DNA from: a virus
IMG/VR virus record: IMGVR_UViG_3300029990_000054
Coordinates: 1 to 23,219 of that record
Direction: 5' to 3' (one strand)
Length of the DNA stretch: 23,219 nucleotides
Below, piece by piece: positions 131-10,277 of this stretch (position 1 is its first letter; the number at the start of each line of letters is the position of its first letter). A program made the position numbers and the translations under genes. The notes under the pieces are model-generated. The model made no database searches, was not told the origin of the DNA, and saw nothing but the letters and a program-made list of their open reading frames with translations.

Positions 131-191
131 AAAAAAAACCCGCACGATTTGAGCTTGCTGACTGGGTCAGCCTAGGCTTGGCGGGTGTGTT
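131..191 (-). ncRNA. Candidate abiF-type small RNA upstream of the Abi gene
   Basis: A ~60-nt transcript is predicted between a near-consensus promoter (-10 at 204-199) and a run of eight U (138-131). Its ends pair through ACCCGC (186-181) with GCGGGU (143-138), directly followed by the U-run, so the closing stem doubles as an intrinsic terminator. Inside is a perfect 6-bp hairpin, GCUGAC-CCA-GUCAGC (171-157). A structured RNA upstream of AbiF genes (the abiF RNA motif) is known from comparative genomics and has been reported to act as the RNA antitoxin of AbiF. That this locus is such an RNA is inferred from position, promoter and structure; I could not compare it with a covariance model. 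Alternatively it is only an attenuator in the abi leader. Confidence 0.6.
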
Positions 192-3368: not shown

Positions 3369-3555
3369 GGCGGCGGCCTCCCTGGGCTTTCTTGGCGGCG
3401 ATGTTGTCCATGTAGCTGGCCCACTCTTCGCGCTTGAGTTGCTGGCGGGTACGGCTGCAGGCGGCGTGCTTGCGGGTGGATCGGGCCTTGCCACAGATGT
3501 CGCAGATGCTGGGCAGGTCCAGGCGGTGACTGGCCATGGTTGGACGCTCACGCAT
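3358..3555 (-). CDS. Small zinc-finger-like phage protein
   Basis: A 65-aa basic protein, [20 protein letters not shown] onward, with C18-x2-C21 (ICDICGK), K-H30 and C33, followed by a basic helix ([17 protein letters not shown]) and a Lys/Arg-rich tail ([11 protein letters not shown]). The arrangement suggests a small zinc-binding, nucleic-acid-associated protein; no exact family recognised. The start at 3555 has GGAGG six bases upstream, which itself lies within the end of the FtsK-gamma gene, and gives an 8-bp ATGCGTGA overlap with it. An internal ATG at 3537 is possible but lacks as good a signal. Confidence 0.7.
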
Positions 3556-3970
3556 GAGGCACCTCCAACATCAGCACGGCGCGGGCGCCTTCGCTGTTCA
3601 TGCCGCTGACGATGCGGTCGCGCTCCATGCCCTCGATAATGCGGGCTGCGCGGTTGTAGCCGATGCCGAAGCGGCGCTGCAGGAAGGAAGCGCTGGCACG
3701 CTGATTCTTGACGACTGCCTCGACGGCATCGCGGTAAAGCGGGTCAGCGGTTTCAGGTTTCATCGGATGGGTGGCGACGTAGCGGGACGTGCGCTCAAGC
3801 ACTTCCACGGCGGTTGCCTGGTCGTTGTACTTTTCGATGGCTCGAGCGGCTTTGCTGATCAGATGCTCGCAGGCCTTGCGCAGGTCGTCCGGCGTCTCGG
3901 TACCGGCCGCGCTGCAATAGGTGGTGATGAGGTCCTCGGCGATTTGGCCGACTTCGACTGGCGTCTTCAT
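3548..3970 (-). CDS. Stand-alone FtsK gamma-domain protein
   Basis: A 140-aa protein whose C-terminal part (residues ~76-138) reads [20 protein letters not shown] then [20 protein letters not shown]. This is the FtsK gamma winged-helix domain, which in the chromosome translocase FtsK recognises the octameric KOPS sequences that orient DNA pumping. There is no ATPase motor or membrane part; residues 1-75 are a helical, unrelated N-terminus. Such a DNA-binding domain on its own could read host KOPS polarity or compete with FtsK, or it may have been recruited as a phage regulator. It is translationally coupled to the gene upstream (ATGA) and downstream (8-bp overlap). The domain call is firm; the role is unknown. 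Confidence 0.88.
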
Positions 3971-4407
3971 GCTGCACTTCCTTGCACGACAGGGGCAGCC
4001 TGCTGCAGCAGAGCATGCATGTACTCAATCGCCTGGATGGCGTCGTCATGTGATTCGCTGAACACTTCGCGGGCCGTTTGTGCTGCACGGTTAACCGAGG
4101 CCTGCCAGTCTTCGGGCTGTTTGTCCGCCTCCCAGCCCAGCTTGCTGCGACGCTCCATCAGATCCAGTGCCTCGCGCGCCTTGGCACTCAGCCCAGGGCT
4201 GATGCCGCAGTCACCATCGGCCACGTAGTTGACGAACTCCAGTAGGGCGTCTCCGGCGGCAAGTTCATGGCCGCGTGCCCAACTGACCACTTCGCCGCCG
4301 TCGACGCTGCGGGGGACTTCCTTGCCGGTGGCACCACGGATGACGATAGTGTCGTAACGTGGTGTGGTAGCCTTCCCGACGCTGACTTCTTGGGGGTTCA
4401 CTTGCAT
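3967..4407 (-). CDS. Unknown phage protein, 146 aa
   Basis: The protein begins [20 protein letters not shown] and has a beta-rich N-terminus ([20 protein letters not shown]) and a long helical C-terminal half with [20 protein letters not shown] and [20 protein letters not shown] do not recognise a family. It is the leftmost gene using the repeated AAGGAGAAGCACC leader, 3 bases after which its ATG follows at 4407. Its stop overlaps the FtsK-gamma start (ATGA), so the two are likely made together. Confidence 0.75.
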
Positions 4408-4435
4408 GGTGCTTCTCCTTGGGGTTGGTCGGTCT

Positions 4436-4455
4436 CGGAGGGTTGCCGCCCTCCG
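4436..4455 (-). promoter_or_regulatory. Leader stem-loop 1 (CGGCAA hexaloop) before the 146-aa gene
   Basis: On the minus strand CGGAGGG-CGGCAA-CCCTCCG is a perfect 7-bp stem with a six-base loop, lying between the upstream stop (4466) and the Shine-Dalgarno AAGGAG (about 4420). No U-run follows, so it is not a typical terminator. It is one of five related elements with different stems but the same loop. Confidence 0.7.
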
Positions 4456-4465
4456 GGACCATCTT

Positions 4466-5428
4466 TTATGCCGCCACGTAACCGGCGGCTGTCTTGTTCA
4501 GCAGGCCGGCTTCGGCTGCCTTCTGCATCAGCCTGGTGGCTCTGTCGCTGCCTATCCGCAGAACCTTGGCGACCTGACGCACTGCTACCTTCGTTCCTCT
4601 TTCCGTGCTGCCTATGAGCTGCAGCAAATCGGACGGCAGCGCGTCGTTGGTGGCTTGTGCCTGCTCCGTTTCTCGATGTTCCTGTTGCTGTTCCTCGGCC
4701 CGTTCCTGTTCCGCTGCTACTGGTACCGGGGCGCGTTCCTGCGCGGGTGTTGGACGCAGGGCGGAAAGGATCAGGGCCGGCACAATCTCCAGCGCAGCGG
4801 CGAAGCCGAGGCAGAGCAGGGTGGCCAGTTCAAGCGGCAGGCCCGCGGCCTTGGCTGGCAGGGCCAGCAGGGCGGTGAGCTCCTGCGACGCTTGGTCCCG
4901 ACGCACCTGAGCGCGCTCCCGTTCGGCGTCGATGCGTGTCATGGCGGCTGTCTCCAGCTCTAGGGCGCGGGTGACCATGCCTCGCTCGCGCAGTGCGTTG
5001 GCCTGCTGGTGGACGGCGGCCGTATCGCTGTCAAGTTGCTCGATGCGGGTGGCGTCGGCGTCGCGCTGCTCCACCAGGTCGATCTGGCGTTGTTCCTGGC
5101 GGGCCTGGTGCTCGGCGCGGCTGTTGATGATCGAGGACATGAGCCGGTCGTAAGTGGCCCAGCCGGAGACGACGCCCAGGGCCAGCGCGCAGGCCATCAT
5201 CAACAGCGCGCACATGGTTCGGCGCACGACCAGCAGGCCGAGGGCCAGCGGCCAGGCGACGTACTTGAACAGGTCCAGGACCACCGCGGCCGAGGCGAAC
5301 AGAACGGCGAGCAGTGTGTTGTCGATCAGCGCGGCTATGGCCAGTGCCACCGACGTGGCAGTCACGCCTGCCAGTGCTGCGACCATGGCCAGCAATGGCC
5401 AGCGGTGGTGCTGTTGTAGTTGGTGCAT
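4466..5428 (-). CDS. Membrane protein with coiled coil and C-terminal winged-helix-like domain
   Basis: A 320-aa protein. Hydrophobic segments lie at about residues 11-34, 37-68 (one or two spans) and 71-93; a heptad-rich, Gln/Glu/Arg coiled coil fills 100-190; a fourth hydrophobic segment is at 198-226; an acidic Gln/Glu linker follows (230-265). The end (276-320: KVAVRQVAKVLRIGSDRATR...) looks like an HTH or winged helix. The layout would tether a DNA- or protein-binding domain to the inner membrane through an antiparallel coiled coil. I know no characterised homologue. The start at 5428 is set by the repeated leader CCCAAGGAGAAGCACCATG; a longer in-frame extension to 5809 runs antisense-like through the neighbouring gene and is rejected. 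Confidence 0.75.
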   Translation of the reverse strand: MHQLQQHHRWPLLAMVAALAGVTATSVALAIAALIDNTLLAVLFASAAVVLDLFKYVAWPLALGLLVVRRTMCALLMMACALALGVVSGWATYDRLMSSIINSRAEHQARQEQRQIDLVEQRDADATRIEQLDSDTAAVHQQANALRERGMVTRALELETAAMTRIDAERERAQVRRDQASQELTALLALPAKAAGLPLELATLLCLGFAAALEIVPALILSALRPTPAQERAPVPVAAEQERAEEQQQEHRETEQAQATNDALPSDLLQLIGSTERGTKVAVRQVAKVLRIGSDRATRLMQKAAEAGLLNKTAAGYVAA

Positions 5429-5448
5429 GGTGCTTCTCCTTGGGGGAT

Positions 5449-5478
5449 GGCCCTGCCGAGTTGCTGCTCGGCGGGGCC
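5449..5478 (-). promoter_or_regulatory. Leader stem-loop 2 (CAGCAA hexaloop) before the membrane-protein gene
   Basis: GCCGAG-CAGCAA-CTCGGC forms a 6-bp stem (5472-5455) that continues, after one A/C mismatch, as GGCCC/GGGCC (5478-5474 with 5453-5449). The loop differs from the other four copies at one base. It lies between the upstream stop at 5488 and the shared Shine-Dalgarno leader. Confidence 0.68.
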
Positions 5479-5487
5479 TTCGTGTGG

Positions 5488-5877
5488 TTAACGCACTCGA
5501 ACTTTCTTGCCGTCTTCGATGACGTACAGGTTCACGTCCGCCAGGCGGTACTGGCCACCCGGTCCCCCGGCGACGCAGTACAGGCCGCCGCGGTCGTCTA
5601 CGACTCGAACAGGGAACGGGTACTGCCCCTGGCTCTTTGCCCAGGTCGCCTGGTGCGCGTACTTGCTCGATTTCTTGATTTCCGCGTACAGCTGCTGACC
5701 CTCGGGACGTACGCCGTGCGGCCCGTGGGCCAACTCGAACCCTTCCCAGCGCGCCTGCGTGATCGGGTCGACGTAACCGGTGTCGGCCTCGTTGCGCGTC
5801 GTCGGCCACTTGTTGGCGGTGGCCACGTCCTCGAAAGCGAACAGCATGTTCAGGTCTGCGAGTGGTTGAGTGCTCAT
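5488..5877 (-). CDS. Unknown phage protein, 129 aa
   Basis: The protein starts MSTQPLADLNMLFAFEDVAT and ends LADVNLYVIEDGKKVRVR. It appears beta-rich, with aromatic and glycine residues (GGLYCVAGGPGGQYRLADVN) and no transmembrane segment or clear motif. I do not recognise a family. The start at 5877 overlaps the stop of the 196-aa gene as ATGA, so the two form a coupled pair; no stem-loop leader is present at this junction, unlike the uncoupled junctions nearby. An open frame extending to 6144 has no support. Confidence 0.7.
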   Translation of the reverse strand: MSTQPLADLNMLFAFEDVATANKWPTTRNEADTGYVDPITQARWEGFELAHGPHGVRPEGQQLYAEIKKSSKYAHQATWAKSQGQYPFPVRVVDDRGGLYCVAGGPGGQYRLADVNLYVIEDGKKVRVR

Positions 5878-6464
5878 GCGCGCTCTCCCAACTTGGCTAC
5901 GCGGGCGGACTCGTATTCGCTCGGCAAAATCTCCACCGCGCCGCTGATCCAGCCGGACGTTGGTTTGCCGGCTGCGACGTTGGCTTCGTGCTGGGCCTGG
6001 TTGATATCGAAACCGAGGCAGAAGTAGGCCACGCCTTGGTGCTCGAACTTGATACCGCCGCAGAGCATCAGGTTGCCGGTGTTCACATTCAGCCGATCCC
6101 AGTAGCCATGGGTGTCCAGGCGAGGCGGGCAGTGTTCCTTCCACAACTCGCGCAGGCGCTCGTGCTCGGCTCGAATAGCTGCGCGCTGCTCCTTGGTGAT
6201 GCCCTTGGGTGGCACTGCCTGTTGGCGGAGGCTGCGGTAGCCGTACTCGTCAGGACGGCACCAGTGGACGTCCAGTTCGCGGCTGGCGGACAGCTTCACG
6301 CCACCGGCGAAGTGCGAAGTGATGTCGCGCATCGGGGCGATGGCTCCGCCGAACAGCTTACCCAGCTCGGCCAGCTGCTCATTGAGCAGGTCTTTTGCCT
6401 GGTAGAACTCCCGGACGATGGCCGCCACTTCGGGGGCTTCGGACATGTAGAAGTAGTTCTGCAT
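5874..6464 (-). CDS. Unknown phage protein, 196 aa
   Basis: The protein begins MQNYFYMSEAPEVAAIVREF, has a helical first third (FYQAKDLLNEQLAELGKLFG), a basic/charged helix in the middle (TKEQRAAIRAEHERLRELWK) and a conserved-looking C-terminal part (DRLNVNTGNLMLCGGIKFEH, then AYFCLGFDINQAQ). It may be a two-domain soluble protein. No family recognised. The ATG at 6464 is placed by the repeated leader AAGGAGAAGCACC, and the gene is followed by an ATGA-coupled partner. Given its location between the helicase paralogue and the membrane protein, a role in phage DNA metabolism or host takeover is possible but unproven. Confidence 0.75.
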   Translation of the reverse strand: MQNYFYMSEAPEVAAIVREFYQAKDLLNEQLAELGKLFGGAIAPMRDITSHFAGGVKLSASRELDVHWCRPDEYGYRSLRQQAVPPKGITKEQRAAIRAEHERLRELWKEHCPPRLDTHGYWDRLNVNTGNLMLCGGIKFEHQGVAYFCLGFDINQAQHEANVAAGKPTSGWISGAVEILPSEYESARVAKLGERA

Positions 6465-6486
6465 GGTGCTTCTCCTTGGGTTGGTG

Positions 6487-6508
6487 CCCAGGCGTTGCCG
6501 CGCCTGGG
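6487..6508 (-). promoter_or_regulatory. Leader stem-loop 3 (CGGCAA hexaloop) before the 196-aa gene
   Basis: CCCAGGCG-CGGCAA-CGCCTGGG is a perfect 8-bp stem with the same loop as copies 1, 4 and 5 but a different stem sequence. It is positioned between the stop of the helicase paralogue (6522) and the shared Shine-Dalgarno leader. Confidence 0.72.
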
Positions 6509-6521
6509 TGGGGGTTCAGGC

Positions 6522-7313
6522 CTATTCGGTAATCAGGCACATGGCTGCAATTTCGATGTGAGCGTCTTCGCGGGCTTCCGTAGGCAGAACGAACAGGTCA
6601 TCCAGGACGCCGAGCAGTGCGTGTAACTGGGCGTGGTTGAACGCGGCTCGCTTGTTGTCGTGCGGCTCTACGAAGTAGGCGGTTGTGTGTTGCAGCAGGC
6701 CTCCCAAGCGTTCGCCAGCAGCCTTGAAGGTGTCGTAGAGGTAGAGGCCGCCGGTGTTGTGCATGTCGAGCAGGTCTCGCAGGGCCTGAGCGGATTCTTC
6801 GGTGCGTTGTGAGTGATCAAGCTCAACGAACACGAAGCGGGAGCGCAGTGCGTCCGATAGCGGCGGATTGCCGACGATGACCAGAGCGCCGCGAAACTTC
6901 ACGTCTTCTACCGGGGCTCCGGCGCTGCGAAAGCTCATGCGCTCGCCGGTGAAGCAGGTTTTCAGCGCATCCCAGTCAAACGGCTCGCCGGCCCCTTGCC
7001 GGTCGGGCTCCTCGATTACTACAGGCATATCCACCGCGTTGTGCACGCTGCGCATCACGGCCGTCCTGGTGCTGTGCGCGAGATTGATGGTGTGGCTCCG
7101 CTCGGATCCGAGCAGCTTCCACAGCACTGACAGGATCAAGCTGCTATGGGCTGAGCAGGTGCCGGTCACTTCGAGACACGGGTAGCTGCGCTGCGCGGCA
7201 CGGATGCGCTCCGCGTGCAGCGCGCCCAGCCACCAAGCCAGGACAACCAGGCCCTTGGCGCCGAAGGCGGTGATGAAGAGGTTTATCCATTTCGGGGTTT
7301 GTCTCGGTTGCAT
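6522..7313 (-). CDS. Walker-A-degenerate paralogue of the phage helicase domain
   Basis: A 263-aa protein that aligns with residues ~530 onward of the toprim primase-helicase encoded just upstream. Shared blocks include VVLAWWLGAL-x-AE-x-IR, the segment around the nucleotide site (LE-x-x-G...LWK), PVV-(L/I)-x-E and FDWD-x-LKT. In the primase-helicase the P-loop reads GEAGAGKTT; here the aligned bases encode GTCSAHSSL (residues 51-59), so the catalytic lysine is Ser57 and two P-loop glycines are Ser and His. ATP hydrolysis is therefore unlikely. The frame is intact, uses the shared stem-loop leader and is not obviously decaying, which suggests a retained regulatory or structural role, for example as an inactive subunit in the helicase ring. 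The N-terminal primase and toprim parts are absent. Confidence 0.8.
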   Translation of the reverse strand: MQPRQTPKWINLFITAFGAKGLVVLAWWLGALHAERIRAAQRSYPCLEVTGTCSAHSSLILSVLWKLLGSERSHTINLAHSTRTAVMRSVHNAVDMPVVIEEPDRQGAGEPFDWDALKTCFTGERMSFRSAGAPVEDVKFRGALVIVGNPPLSDALRSRFVFVELDHSQRTEESAQALRDLLDMHNTGGLYLYDTFKAAGERLGGLLQHTTAYFVEPHDNKRAAFNHAQLHALLGVLDDLFVLPTEAREDAHIEIAAMCLITE

Positions 7314-7335
7314 GATTCTTCTCCTTGGGTTAGTT

Positions 7336-7359
7336 GCCCGGACGTTGCCGTGTCCGGGC
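7336..7359 (-). promoter_or_regulatory. Leader stem-loop 4 (CGGCAA hexaloop) before the helicase paralogue
   Basis: GCCCGGAC/GTCCGGGC form an 8-bp stem closed at the top by an A/C mismatch around the CGGCAA loop. It lies between the stop of the 46-aa gene (7367) and the leader CCCAAGGAGAAGAATCATG, which differs from the other copies only near the start codon. Confidence 0.7.
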
Positions 7360-7366
7360 GGTTGGG

Positions 7367-7507
7367 TTAGTGCAGGACCACGGCCAGCAGGGACGGGGCG
7401 TAGTAGCCGGCCAGCACGAGGGCCAGCAGGGTCAGGCCGCTAATGGCCAGCGTGAGCAGCGTGTCGCCGCGGTTGCTCTGGTAGAAGTTGTCGTTGTCGT
7501 TTTGCAT
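7367..7507 (-). CDS. 46-aa single-span membrane peptide
   Basis: ATG at 7507 with the shared leader AAGGAGAAGCACC opens a 46-codon frame starting MQNDNDNFYQSNRGDTL, followed by one hydrophobic span (LLTLAISGLTLLALVLAGYY) and a short tail (APSLLAVVLH). The N-terminus is polar and acidic, so an N-in or N-out topology cannot be decided. Too small for routine gene callers but well supported by its leader and by stem-loops on both sides. It sits between the replicative helicase and its inactive paralogue. Function unknown; candidates include a membrane anchor for the replication proteins or a small host-envelope effector. Confidence 0.75.
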   Translation of the reverse strand: MQNDNDNFYQSNRGDTLLTLAISGLTLLALVLAGYYAPSLLAVVLH

Positions 7508-7529
7508 GGTGCTTCTCCTTGGGGTTGAA

Positions 7530-7549
7530 GCCGGCGTTGCCGCGCCGGC
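7530..7549 (-). promoter_or_regulatory. Leader stem-loop 5 (CGGCAA hexaloop) after the primase-helicase gene
   Basis: GCCGGCG-CGGCAA-CGCCGGC is a perfect 7-bp stem. It lies five bases after the primase-helicase stop codon and before the leader of the 46-aa gene. Same loop, different stem from the other copies. Confidence 0.72.
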
Positions 7550-7553
7550 GGGG

Positions 7554-10277
7554 TTACACGAGCTGGAATATCCAGCAGCGAACCGTCCTTGCCGTGCCGT
7601 GGGTGTCGACGGCGATGGCTGAGTTGATCGGTTTGTTGGTTTCCAGGAATTTGGGCGACTTGCTGGTCTTGAGCACGCGCTTGAGCTCGCTGAGGTTCGG
7701 CAGCTGCTGGCGCTTGTTGGCCGCCGTCTCGACGAACTCGTTGAGATTGATGGCGAAGAAGGCCGACTTGCGGGAGTGGTTCAGTTTGCCGCCGGTGTCG
7801 CCCAGTGGGCCGTTGAGGAACTCGACCATGTCCCAGAACTCACGCACGAGTGGGTGGTCGGCGTTGATGGCCTCCTGACGTTCCTGGGCCATGCGTTCCA
7901 CCTCGGCATGCACCAGGGCCGCGCGCTCGTCGCTCAGCGGGACGACCAACTGCAGGGCGTCCACCAAGCTGCGCAGTTGGGCGTGATTCTTGGCGATACG
8001 CACAGTGCGAATGCCCGGGAGCGCCAGGAGCTGCTGCTCGTAGCCGGAGGTACGCTCGTCCAGCAGGCTGAGGACCTTTGCCTCGGGCTGCAGCGCCTTG
8101 ATCATGAAACCGCTGAGCTGTTCCACCGGCATGCGCTCCAGCTGCTCGGCGAACAGCTTGGTTTCCGGTGTCTGGTGTTCACGTGTCAGGTGCACATGAC
8201 CCAGGCGCTGGAGGATCGGCTCTGAGGCGTTGACCGCGTTGTTCTGGGCGATCAGCAGGGCGGCCCGGAACGGCGGTTCGCGGGTGTCGTTGCCGTTGTT
8301 CTTCACGCCAGTGGAGCGCACGCTGCGGCCGTTGTAGGCGGTCTTGAGTTCGTCCCAGTCGAAGTGCTTCACCGGGGCGCCTTCCTTCTGCTCGCGCTCG
8401 GACTCGATCAGCACGACCGGCAGGTTGCCGACTTGGGCGAAGTTCCGCGCACGGCTGGCAGGGGTGGCCTTAGACGGGTCGAAACCTTCATATTCAACGC
8501 GCCCGGTGGTTTTCCAGAGCAGTTCCACCAGAGTGGTCTTGCCGGCACCGGCTTCGCCGATCAGCTCAAGGAACAGGTAGGACTTGTGAATCTGGCGGAT
8601 TTGCTCTGCATACAGGGCGCCCAGCCACCAGGCCAGCACCACAGCGCCGCGCACGCCGAAGCATTTCCAGAACAGTTCGAACCAGCCTTCGTTGTAGGCG
8701 CTGAGGTCTGGGTTGATGTGCAGCACTGGGGACTGGCTCTGCGACTTCACACTCAAATTGCCGACGTCGAAGAAGTCCTCTTCGTTGAGCTTGTGCACCT
8801 TGCCGCCGGCGATGGCCAGTTCGTTGAACACGTAGACGCCGTGTTCACGGGTGTAGCCGATCCAGTCGATGGTGTTGACGGTCTTGAGGTCGTCGAGCTG
8901 GAAGCCGAGCATGCGCTCCAACTGCTGCGCAGTGCCGGTGAACATGGCCCCATTGCACTCGTTGAGCAGGCGCTTTTTAAACTCCGGTGCGGCAGTAATC
9001 TGCGAGGCGGTGAAGGTTGTCTTGACGGCACGGCTGTCTGGTCGATCTACGCGGAAGTAGTACCAGGCCTCCTGGGTCACGTCGTTGCGCATGTAGTACA
9101 GCGCTTGGAAAGCGCAGTTGGCGATACGCACAACGGACGAGCTCTGGCGCAGGGCCTTGTCCCGACGCTGCTTGTCGCTGAGTAGCTGATCTTCCTGGCG
9201 ATCAGAGCTATCCAGCTCGCGGGTAGCGCGCTCGTACTTTTCCAGGTCAAGGTTGAACCAGTACAGACGGGAGCGGTAGGTAAAGTTGAATTCCCTGCGC
9301 TCGTCCCACTCGTACATGAGCAGGCCTTTTTCCTCGGCCGAGTCGGCCAGCAGCAGGGCGCCCTGGTGACGGGCCTCTGCAAGGTCAAGCTCGACGCGCT
9401 TGGCGCGTTCGTCGTCGCCCTCAATGAAAGCCCAGCGCTGATGCAGGTCATTCCAGTCGATCTTTTTGGCGCCGCGCTGCGGGATGACAGCGGCTTCGCA
9501 CTTGAAGCCCAGCGCGCGGGCCTCTTTGGCCCAGCGGCGCATGTTGGCCTTGGCCACCGGCTCGTTATCCAGTGCCCAGACCAGGCGCGGCAGGCGCTTG
9601 TCCGCCTCCTGGCAGGCCTTCTTGAGGGCGCGGAGCGATTCCTCGGGGAAAGGAGCGCTGCTCATCATGGAAACGGCAGGTATATCGTTGTGCAGCAGGG
9701 CGATGGCGTCGAAGATGCCCTCGACGATATACAGCTCGTCGACCTCCATTAGCGTGAACGAAGGCGGGCACCACCAGACGCCCTTGTAGCTCTCGCCCGG
9801 TTTGAAGCGGGCCTTCTGCTTGCCGAAGCGCTCGGGGCGATCGATCAGGCGCTCCCAGTAGCCCCCCTTCTCCAGGGGAAAGCGAATGGTCGCGCTGCCG
9901 GCACCAATTTCGCGGCTCCAGTAGTTCTCCTGGGTGAACCAGCCAGCGATAAGTTCGACGCGAAAGCCTCTGGCCATTTCCAGATAGGCGCGGGCAGTGG
10001 CAGTGGGGTTGTCCGCGGTTGACGGCGCCTGCTCACTCCAGTCGTTGAATAGGTCGCTGTAGATGTCCTTGACATGGACGCGGTGATTGCAGGCTTCCGG
10101 CCGGCCACAAATCAGCATCCAAGGCGAGTCATGGAAGGTGTAGAGGGTGTTTTTACCGCACTTGTGCGCCGGGCATCTGCCTTTGCGCATGTAGTTGGTG
10201 TTGGTCATGTGCTTGAGGCCGAAGTCGGACTCAAGCCGGCGCAGCACCTCTACCCGTAGTTTCTCGTGCATCGTCAT
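7554..10277 (-). CDS. Toprim primase-helicase (phage replication protein)
   Basis: A 907-aa replication protein. Residues 35-65 form a CHC2-like zinc site (CPAHKC...CGRPEACNH). A toprim domain follows at ~180-285, with the acidic residues in LYIVEGIFDA (Glu186, Asp190) and VWALDNE (Asp237). The C-terminal AAA/SF3-like motor has Walker A GEAGAGKTT at 574-582 and an acidic Walker B-like PVVLIESE. This would make RNA primers and unwind DNA at the phage origin, replacing the rolling-circle gpA of classical P2 phages. The start at 10277 has AAGG upstream; an ATG two codons later (10271) is also possible. It is the largest early gene, and a truncated, Walker-A-dead copy of its motor lies just downstream. 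Confidence 0.9.
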   Translation of the reverse strand: MTMHEKLRVEVLRRLESDFGLKHMTNTNYMRKGRCPAHKCGKNTLYTFHDSPWMLICGRPEACNHRVHVKDIYSDLFNDWSEQAPSTADNPTATARAYLEMARGFRVELIAGWFTQENYWSREIGAGSATIRFPLEKGGYWERLIDRPERFGKQKARFKPGESYKGVWWCPPSFTLMEVDELYIVEGIFDAIALLHNDIPAVSMMSSAPFPEESLRALKKACQEADKRLPRLVWALDNEPVAKANMRRWAKEARALGFKCEAAVIPQRGAKKIDWNDLHQRWAFIEGDDERAKRVELDLAEARHQGALLLADSAEEKGLLMYEWDERREFNFTYRSRLYWFNLDLEKYERATRELDSSDRQEDQLLSDKQRRDKALRQSSSVVRIANCAFQALYYMRNDVTQEAWYYFRVDRPDSRAVKTTFTASQITAAPEFKKRLLNECNGAMFTGTAQQLERMLGFQLDDLKTVNTIDWIGYTREHGVYVFNELAIAGGKVHKLNEEDFFDVGNLSVKSQSQSPVLHINPDLSAYNEGWFELFWKCFGVRGAVVLAWWLGALYAEQIRQIHKSYLFLELIGEAGAGKTTLVELLWKTTGRVEYEGFDPSKATPASRARNFAQVGNLPVVLIESEREQKEGAPVKHFDWDELKTAYNGRSVRSTGVKNNGNDTREPPFRAALLIAQNNAVNASEPILQRLGHVHLTREHQTPETKLFAEQLERMPVEQLSGFMIKALQPEAKVLSLLDERTSGYEQQLLALPGIRTVRIAKNHAQLRSLVDALQLVVPLSDERAALVHAEVERMAQERQEAINADHPLVREFWDMVEFLNGPLGDTGGKLNHSRKSAFFAINLNEFVETAANKRQQLPNLSELKRVLKTSKSPKFLETNKPINSAIAVDTHGTARTVRCWIFQLV

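Follow-up and report, generated by a model that had tools for sequence, protein, structure and literature searches.

The window, a virus record of 23.2 kb analysed over its full length (23,219 nucleotides), is P2-like in content: genes for sheath, tape measure, baseplate hub and tail collar occur together with an early operon on the minus strand. Its annotated relatives are Peduoviridae, mainly phages of Pseudomonas. Behind the gene for a TOPRIM primase-helicase in this operon lies a gene for a stand-alone helicase-domain protein, termed the accessory protein here; the features of both are collected in Table 1. An earlier note on this DNA had placed the two genes 240 bp apart, which is correct, and the gap contains a small ORF. 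ORFs of 46-48 aa resembling it are also found in the related loci L010, L012, L014, L015, L028 and L041. Elsewhere in the window, an FtsK gamma (winged helix) domain is encoded as a small separate protein at 3548-3970 on the minus strand (Pfam E 7.6e-25). A sub-threshold match to the abiF RNA (RF03085, 34.2 bits against a cut-off of 37, E 0.008) occurs at 138-185, minus strand, at the edge of the window beyond the integrase, where any Abi gene would fall outside the record; seven sister loci gave no abiF RNA match at the gathering score.

Table 1. Features of the accessory gene, its primase-helicase neighbour and the shared leader (window coordinates unless a related locus is named)
Feature	Position	Strand	Remark
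Accessory helicase-domain protein, 263 aa, ATG start	6522..7313	-	Stand-alone paralogue of the primase-helicase motor domain
Kept block VVLAWWLGAL, residues 23-32	7218..7247	-	
Degenerate Walker A GTCSAHSSL, residues 51-59	7137..7163	-	GEAGAGKTT in the primase
Walker B-like strand PVVIEE, residues 97-102	7008..7025	-	Acidic residue kept
Region of the lost primase loop GVKxxGNxTxEPPF	6894..6932	-	Presensor-1 DNA hairpin, by position
SRF, residues 158-160, with R159 as putative trans-acting Arg finger	6834..6842	-	MCM 'SRF' motif
R222, sensor-2-like arginine	6648..6650	-	Invariant in accessory proteins (38/38), conserved in primases
46-aa ORF, one hydrophobic segment, membrane-helix-like	7367..7507	-	Between primase and accessory gene
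TOPRIM primase-helicase, 907 aa, parent-type protein	7554..10277	-	phrog_1139, 1200 bits
Intact P-loop GEAGAGKTT of the primase-helicase	8532-8558	-	
Leader copies in the window (five)	4405-4465, 5426-5487, 6462-6521, 7311-7366, 7505-7553	-	
Leader of the accessory gene	7314..7366	-	Stem-loop and AAGGAG
Leader before the 46-aa ORF	7508..7553	-	
Leader before ORF 5874-6464	6465..6521	-	
90-aa protein in the accessory slot of related loci	L010 8966-9238; L012 3210-3482; L015 8963-9235		Walker A GAPATGKT, Walker B VICIDECS

The accessory protein is related to the helicase domain of its larger neighbour. A tblastn search of the window aligned residues 8-258 with that domain at 33% identity (E 5e-30), and the DNA primase profile phrog_1139 matched the protein over positions 505-777 of 895 (E 3.2e-33). 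Only the helicase segment is represented; the TOPRIM part is missing (no Toprim match was obtained), as is the C-terminal region. The description of the gene as a stand-alone helicase paralogue without the Walker A lysine is borne out by the alignment, which sets the degenerate motif opposite the intact P-loop of the primase with S57 at the position of the lysine; the blocks VVLAWWLGAL and FDWDxLKT, said to flank the site, are indeed kept. The GxxxxGK[ST] form of Walker A that marks an active hexameric AAA+/SF3 helicase is not found in the window protein.

Structure prediction agrees with this kinship. An AlphaFold2 model of the window protein, built from 26 sequences, had a pLDDT of 82.9 and a pTM of 0.86, and its best structural match was the SCCmec helicase Cch (Foldseek E 5.6e-6). 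Cch (5dgk; VIA Z 17.2 over 239 residues at 3.5 A) and the SaPIBov1 Rep protein (Z 14.3), both MCM-like hexameric helicases of mobile elements, are the closest solved folds; MCM subunits gave Z scores of 12-13. For the core of the primase, modelled with a pLDDT of 75.7 and a pTM of 0.69, Cch was again the top match (E 1.5e-9), and a profile search of PDB sequences with this core returned P-loop look-alikes only. Matches among predicted viral structures were to larger proteins, chiefly replication proteins some 450-1000 aa long. One relative of the accessory protein, L059 of clade II, lies narrowly above the Pfam cut-off for DUF5906. The accessory protein is therefore given a predicted AAA+ fold of the MCM-like (presensor-1 hairpin) type.

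Relatives of the gene occur in a number of viral contigs. A scan with the paralogue itself returned one more phage, whose copy is 86% identical and has the P-loop GTCSAHGSL (L004, L005 and L014 are one contig), together with one identical fragment, L003. When the primase-helicase was used for the scan, 80 loci were recovered, 28 of them with a free-standing second helicase-domain copy directly downstream. Later scans contributed six contigs of the L036 type (97-99% identical), L112, and L098-L110, which partly overlap the same contigs. The family is apparently uncatalogued in annotated phage and plasmid collections, since tblastn there found full primase-helicases only and no accessory gene. 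Two scans of genome contigs with the paralogue detected no relative, a result that is weak evidence of absence given a method based on short peptide patterns. Literature searches, of partial coverage, gave no description of the accessory gene or of the leader hairpin treated below. The family appears to be new to the libraries searched; paralogues without catalytic residues are already known from this class of AAA+ rings in cells.

An IQ-TREE tree was built from the helicase domains of 38 accessory proteins and 35 primases. It places all accessory proteins in a single clade, separate from the primase domains, with a support of 100/100 on all columns and of 100/99 after removal of the P-loop columns. 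The Walker A lysine is kept in 33 of the 38 and lost in five. Every member of clade II (32 sequences, where the accessory gene follows directly behind the primase with a spacing of 26 bp) has the lysine. All losses fall in two lineages of clade I (six sequences), with the P-loops GTCSAHSSL or GTCSAHGSL in the window type, and GDTGVGQDSL in the L036 type, of which L097 has GDTEVGQHSL; within each lineage the degenerate P-loop is stable. L112, of the same subclade, has an intact GDAGGGKST. The best tree requires two losses, a count not adopted as established because a single origin is not rejected (AU p 0.112).

The earlier note had named relatives with an intact P-loop as evidence against its reading, and for the family the 33 sequences with the lysine, L112 among them, are such relatives. 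Its reading of an inactive paralogue is supported in part: the separate clade, the purifying selection described below and the GTCSAHGSL motif in the independent phage L014 speak for it, and the same 33 relatives speak against it. The predicted loss of ATP binding is a trait of lineages and not the defining feature of the accessory gene, and many members of the family, with a full Walker A, may still bind or hydrolyse ATP.

The gene is maintained by selection. Between the window and L014, dN is 0.073 and dS 0.344, a dN/dS of 0.21 (bootstrap 0.13-0.33); for the exact lineage without the P-loop, purifying selection is read from this one pair of phages. Four other sufficiently diverged accessory pairs, all with an intact P-loop, gave 0.15-0.19. 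Around the P-loop (codons 47-68), S57G is the single amino-acid difference between the window and L014, alongside two synonymous changes. In the L036 lineage the values of 0.30-0.42 have intervals reaching above 1 and are too shallow to be used. For the helicase part of the primase in the window-L014 pair, dN/dS is 0.086. On codon comparison, then, the accessory gene is under purifying selection, weaker than that on the primase, and is hardly a decaying duplicate, for which the earlier note had proposed a dN/dS near 1 as the sign.

What has been lost across the family follows a pattern. All 35 primases have the loop GVKxxGNxTxEPPF, or a close form of it, between Walker B and sensor 1, with the columns G, N, T, E, P and P invariant in at least 97% of them; this loop is absent from all 38 accessory proteins. 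By its position it is the putative presensor-1 hairpin, around which the primase model has a pLDDT below 50 and is too weak to display a hairpin. Several residues invariant in the primases between Walker A and Walker B (the EGFDPSK stretch) are also lost, and the asparagine of motif C is kept in 26 and lost in 12 of the accessory proteins. Three charged residues do not vary in either family: R38, close to the N-terminus, R159 (38 of 38 accessory and 35 of 35 primase sequences) and R222. By motif and position, R159 is the putative Arg finger and R222 the putative sensor 2.

In helicases of the MCM-like and SF3 types, the presensor-1 hairpin is the channel loop that binds DNA. MCM from which this hairpin is deleted no longer unwinds DNA; its Walker A serves the subunit's own site, in cis, and its SRF Arg finger and sensor 2 work in trans, on ATP bound by the adjacent subunit (PMC4619765). 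Read through MCM, the motif losses set against the retention of R159 and R222 suggest that the cis-acting and DNA-gripping parts erode and that the parts serving a neighbour persist. Loss of the loop and retention of the arginines, both family-wide, would fit an inactive ring partner.

The accessory gene is preceded by a leader with a hairpin whose loop is C[GT]GCAA (CAGCAA in one copy), followed by CCAAGGAGAAGCACCATG. The earlier note had counted a stem-loop leader of its own as an argument for the gene. That argument does not stand, and the leader was rejected as a mark of the accessory gene: the same element precedes five genes of the operon in the window, and 84 distinct copies were found before early-operon genes across related loci. 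Among 30 leaders compared, changes on both sides were seen in seven of eight stem pairs, and 91.5% of cells were paired as against 63% in shuffles. No Rfam family was matched at the gathering score in seven sister loci. The leader can be regarded as a shared, covarying element that is a likely crossover point, and it is possibly a new translational control element as well as a recombination junction.

Crossover at the leader can be illustrated by L036. Over its accessory gene and the following 2.4 kb or so, identity to L093-L096 is 95-99% (in L097 the comparison covered about 1.5 kb), and the jump in identity starts at L036:3222, within the leader that precedes this gene; the primases that precede the jump in L036 and L093-L097 have about 69% DNA identity where compared. 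L036 and L097 share 98% accessory identity, yet their primases are 53% identical. To judge from these alignments, this is a recent exchange of a cassette between phages with different primases. The converse is seen as well, with primases 95-98% identical beside accessory proteins down to 36% identical, and overall the identities of the two proteins are loosely linked (Mantel r 0.55). In L010, L012 and L015 the slot is occupied instead by a 90-aa P-loop protein for which no family was found over the cut-off. The accessory gene occupies a slot open to exchange, and its evolution is largely uncoupled from that of the primase beside it, which makes rival phages a plausible target of its product.

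Several known systems offer a comparison. The TOPRIM primase-helicases of phrog_1139 in P2-like phages (e.g., Pseudomonas phage Dobby, phi3 and Stenotrophomonas phage Smp131) have the homologous helicase domain, from which the accessory protein differs in standing alone at 263 aa, without TOPRIM, C-terminal part or channel loop, and in having lost Walker A in the window lineage. Phage T7 makes gp4B, a helicase-only form, beside the gp4A primase-helicase; this form, the product of an internal start, has helicase activity. The accessory protein is likewise helicase-only beside a primase-helicase, but it is encoded by a separate, diverged gene and is probably non-motor. The eukaryotic Mcm2-7 and MCM8-9 heterohexamers, of the same AAA+ class, are built of paralogous subunits with unequal ATPase sites, all of which retain Walker A; in contrast, the accessory paralogue is without the channel loop and in some cases without Walker A. 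Phage genes for non-motor subunits of homohexameric replicative helicases are not often described. Cch is described as an active helicase, and the partner-type Cch2 requires its Walker A residue (PMC7581432). That residue is absent from the window protein.

The reading preferred here, with a probability of about 45%, is that the accessory protein is a non-motor subunit that is taken up into primase-helicase rings and modifies them; both the entry into the ring and the effect there are what we infer. The reading is based on ancestry, the separate clade, purifying selection, the motif pattern, the predicted fold and modular exchange. The gene duplicates the MCM-like/SF3 AAA+ domain of the phage's TOPRIM primase-helicase and omits the primase and C-terminal parts. 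Its product lacks the loop expected to grip DNA in the central channel and, in the window lineage, the Walker A lysine, and it retains the putative Arg finger and sensor 2 that would reach into the ATP site of a neighbour. Assembled beside active primase-helicase subunits through the conserved interface, it would complete the neighbour's ATP site, yet be incapable of the next step, and the mixed ring would thereby be slowed, stalled or gated.

The rings concerned could belong to the phage itself, for control of dose or copy number, or to superinfecting relatives or satellites. The place of the gene in the operon speaks for the phage's own helicase. Optional presence, exchange among primase backgrounds and fast diversification favour the helicases of rivals. 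Since the accessory protein and the local primase are only loosely coupled, a dedicated partnership is less convincing, and the rings of rival phages or satellites are at least as likely a target.

Superinfection or satellite interference, where a prophage-borne dominant-negative protein would poison the primase-helicase of related phages or satellites that enter the cell, is one possible use of such a ring subunit, and the alternatives overlap with the preferred reading. As an explanation of its own it adds that the resident phage's ring is less sensitive, or the dose low, and it is rather unlikely in that form. No more than roughly one close relative in three has the gene (the 28 of 80 loci), a different gene fills the slot in sister phages, near-identical accessory copies stand beside very different primases with the breakpoint in the shared leader, and the accessory protein diversifies faster than the adjoining primase. 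P2-like phages of E. coli are also known to carry competition hotspots (PMC9122126), at other loci and with other genes. Against interference, a place in the replication operon directly behind the phage's own primase means that the protein would be made during its own lytic cycle, and no PADLOC defence model was matched.

A role in loading or assembling the helicase, with an AAA+ protein opening the primase-helicase ring or loading it and with ATP binding by now dispensable in clade I, is improbable. The gene adjoins that of the helicase on the same strand and is probably co-transcribed with it, 33 of 38 members have an intact Walker A, the predicted fold is AAA+, and the DNA-channel loop is gone, all as a loader might have it; however, the accessory gene is missing from some two thirds of related phages, including phages whose primases are 93-98% identical, and the protein descends from the helicase itself and not from any loader family. 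Equally doubtful is an independent ATPase-derived protein with a new task off the helicase rings, e.g., partitioning or the sensing of host DNA. Retention of Walker A in clade II, scant coupling to the local primase and the lost channel loop would suit a new task, but no member has lost the inter-subunit arginines, not even those with a predicted loss of ATP binding, which suggests that an interface with an ATP-bearing neighbour still matters. A functionless, decaying duplicate of the primase-helicase, for which the erosion of Walker A, motif C and channel loop and an evolution faster than that of the primase helicase part (0.21 vs 0.086) might be cited, is very improbable given a dN/dS far under 1 (0.13-0.33), an open frame, start codon and AAGGAG kept in phages at a dS of 0.34, one old clade common to many phages and two arginines invariant in all 38 sequences.

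If the accessory protein is indeed a non-motor ring subunit, it would be a natural example of a motor-domain derivative that regulates or attacks the kind of helicase ring from which it diverged, and one open to study in a small phage system. A tentative extension, with the odds clearly against it, is that a widespread, unannotated family of prophage helicase look-alikes acts as a ring poison, its members, with no hold on DNA and in some lineages no ATP binding, entering the primase-helicases of competing phages or satellites, blocking their replication, and being exchanged as leader-flanked cassettes. The family is in addition a natural set of sequences that appear to have shed catalytic residues acting in cis and retained those acting in trans.
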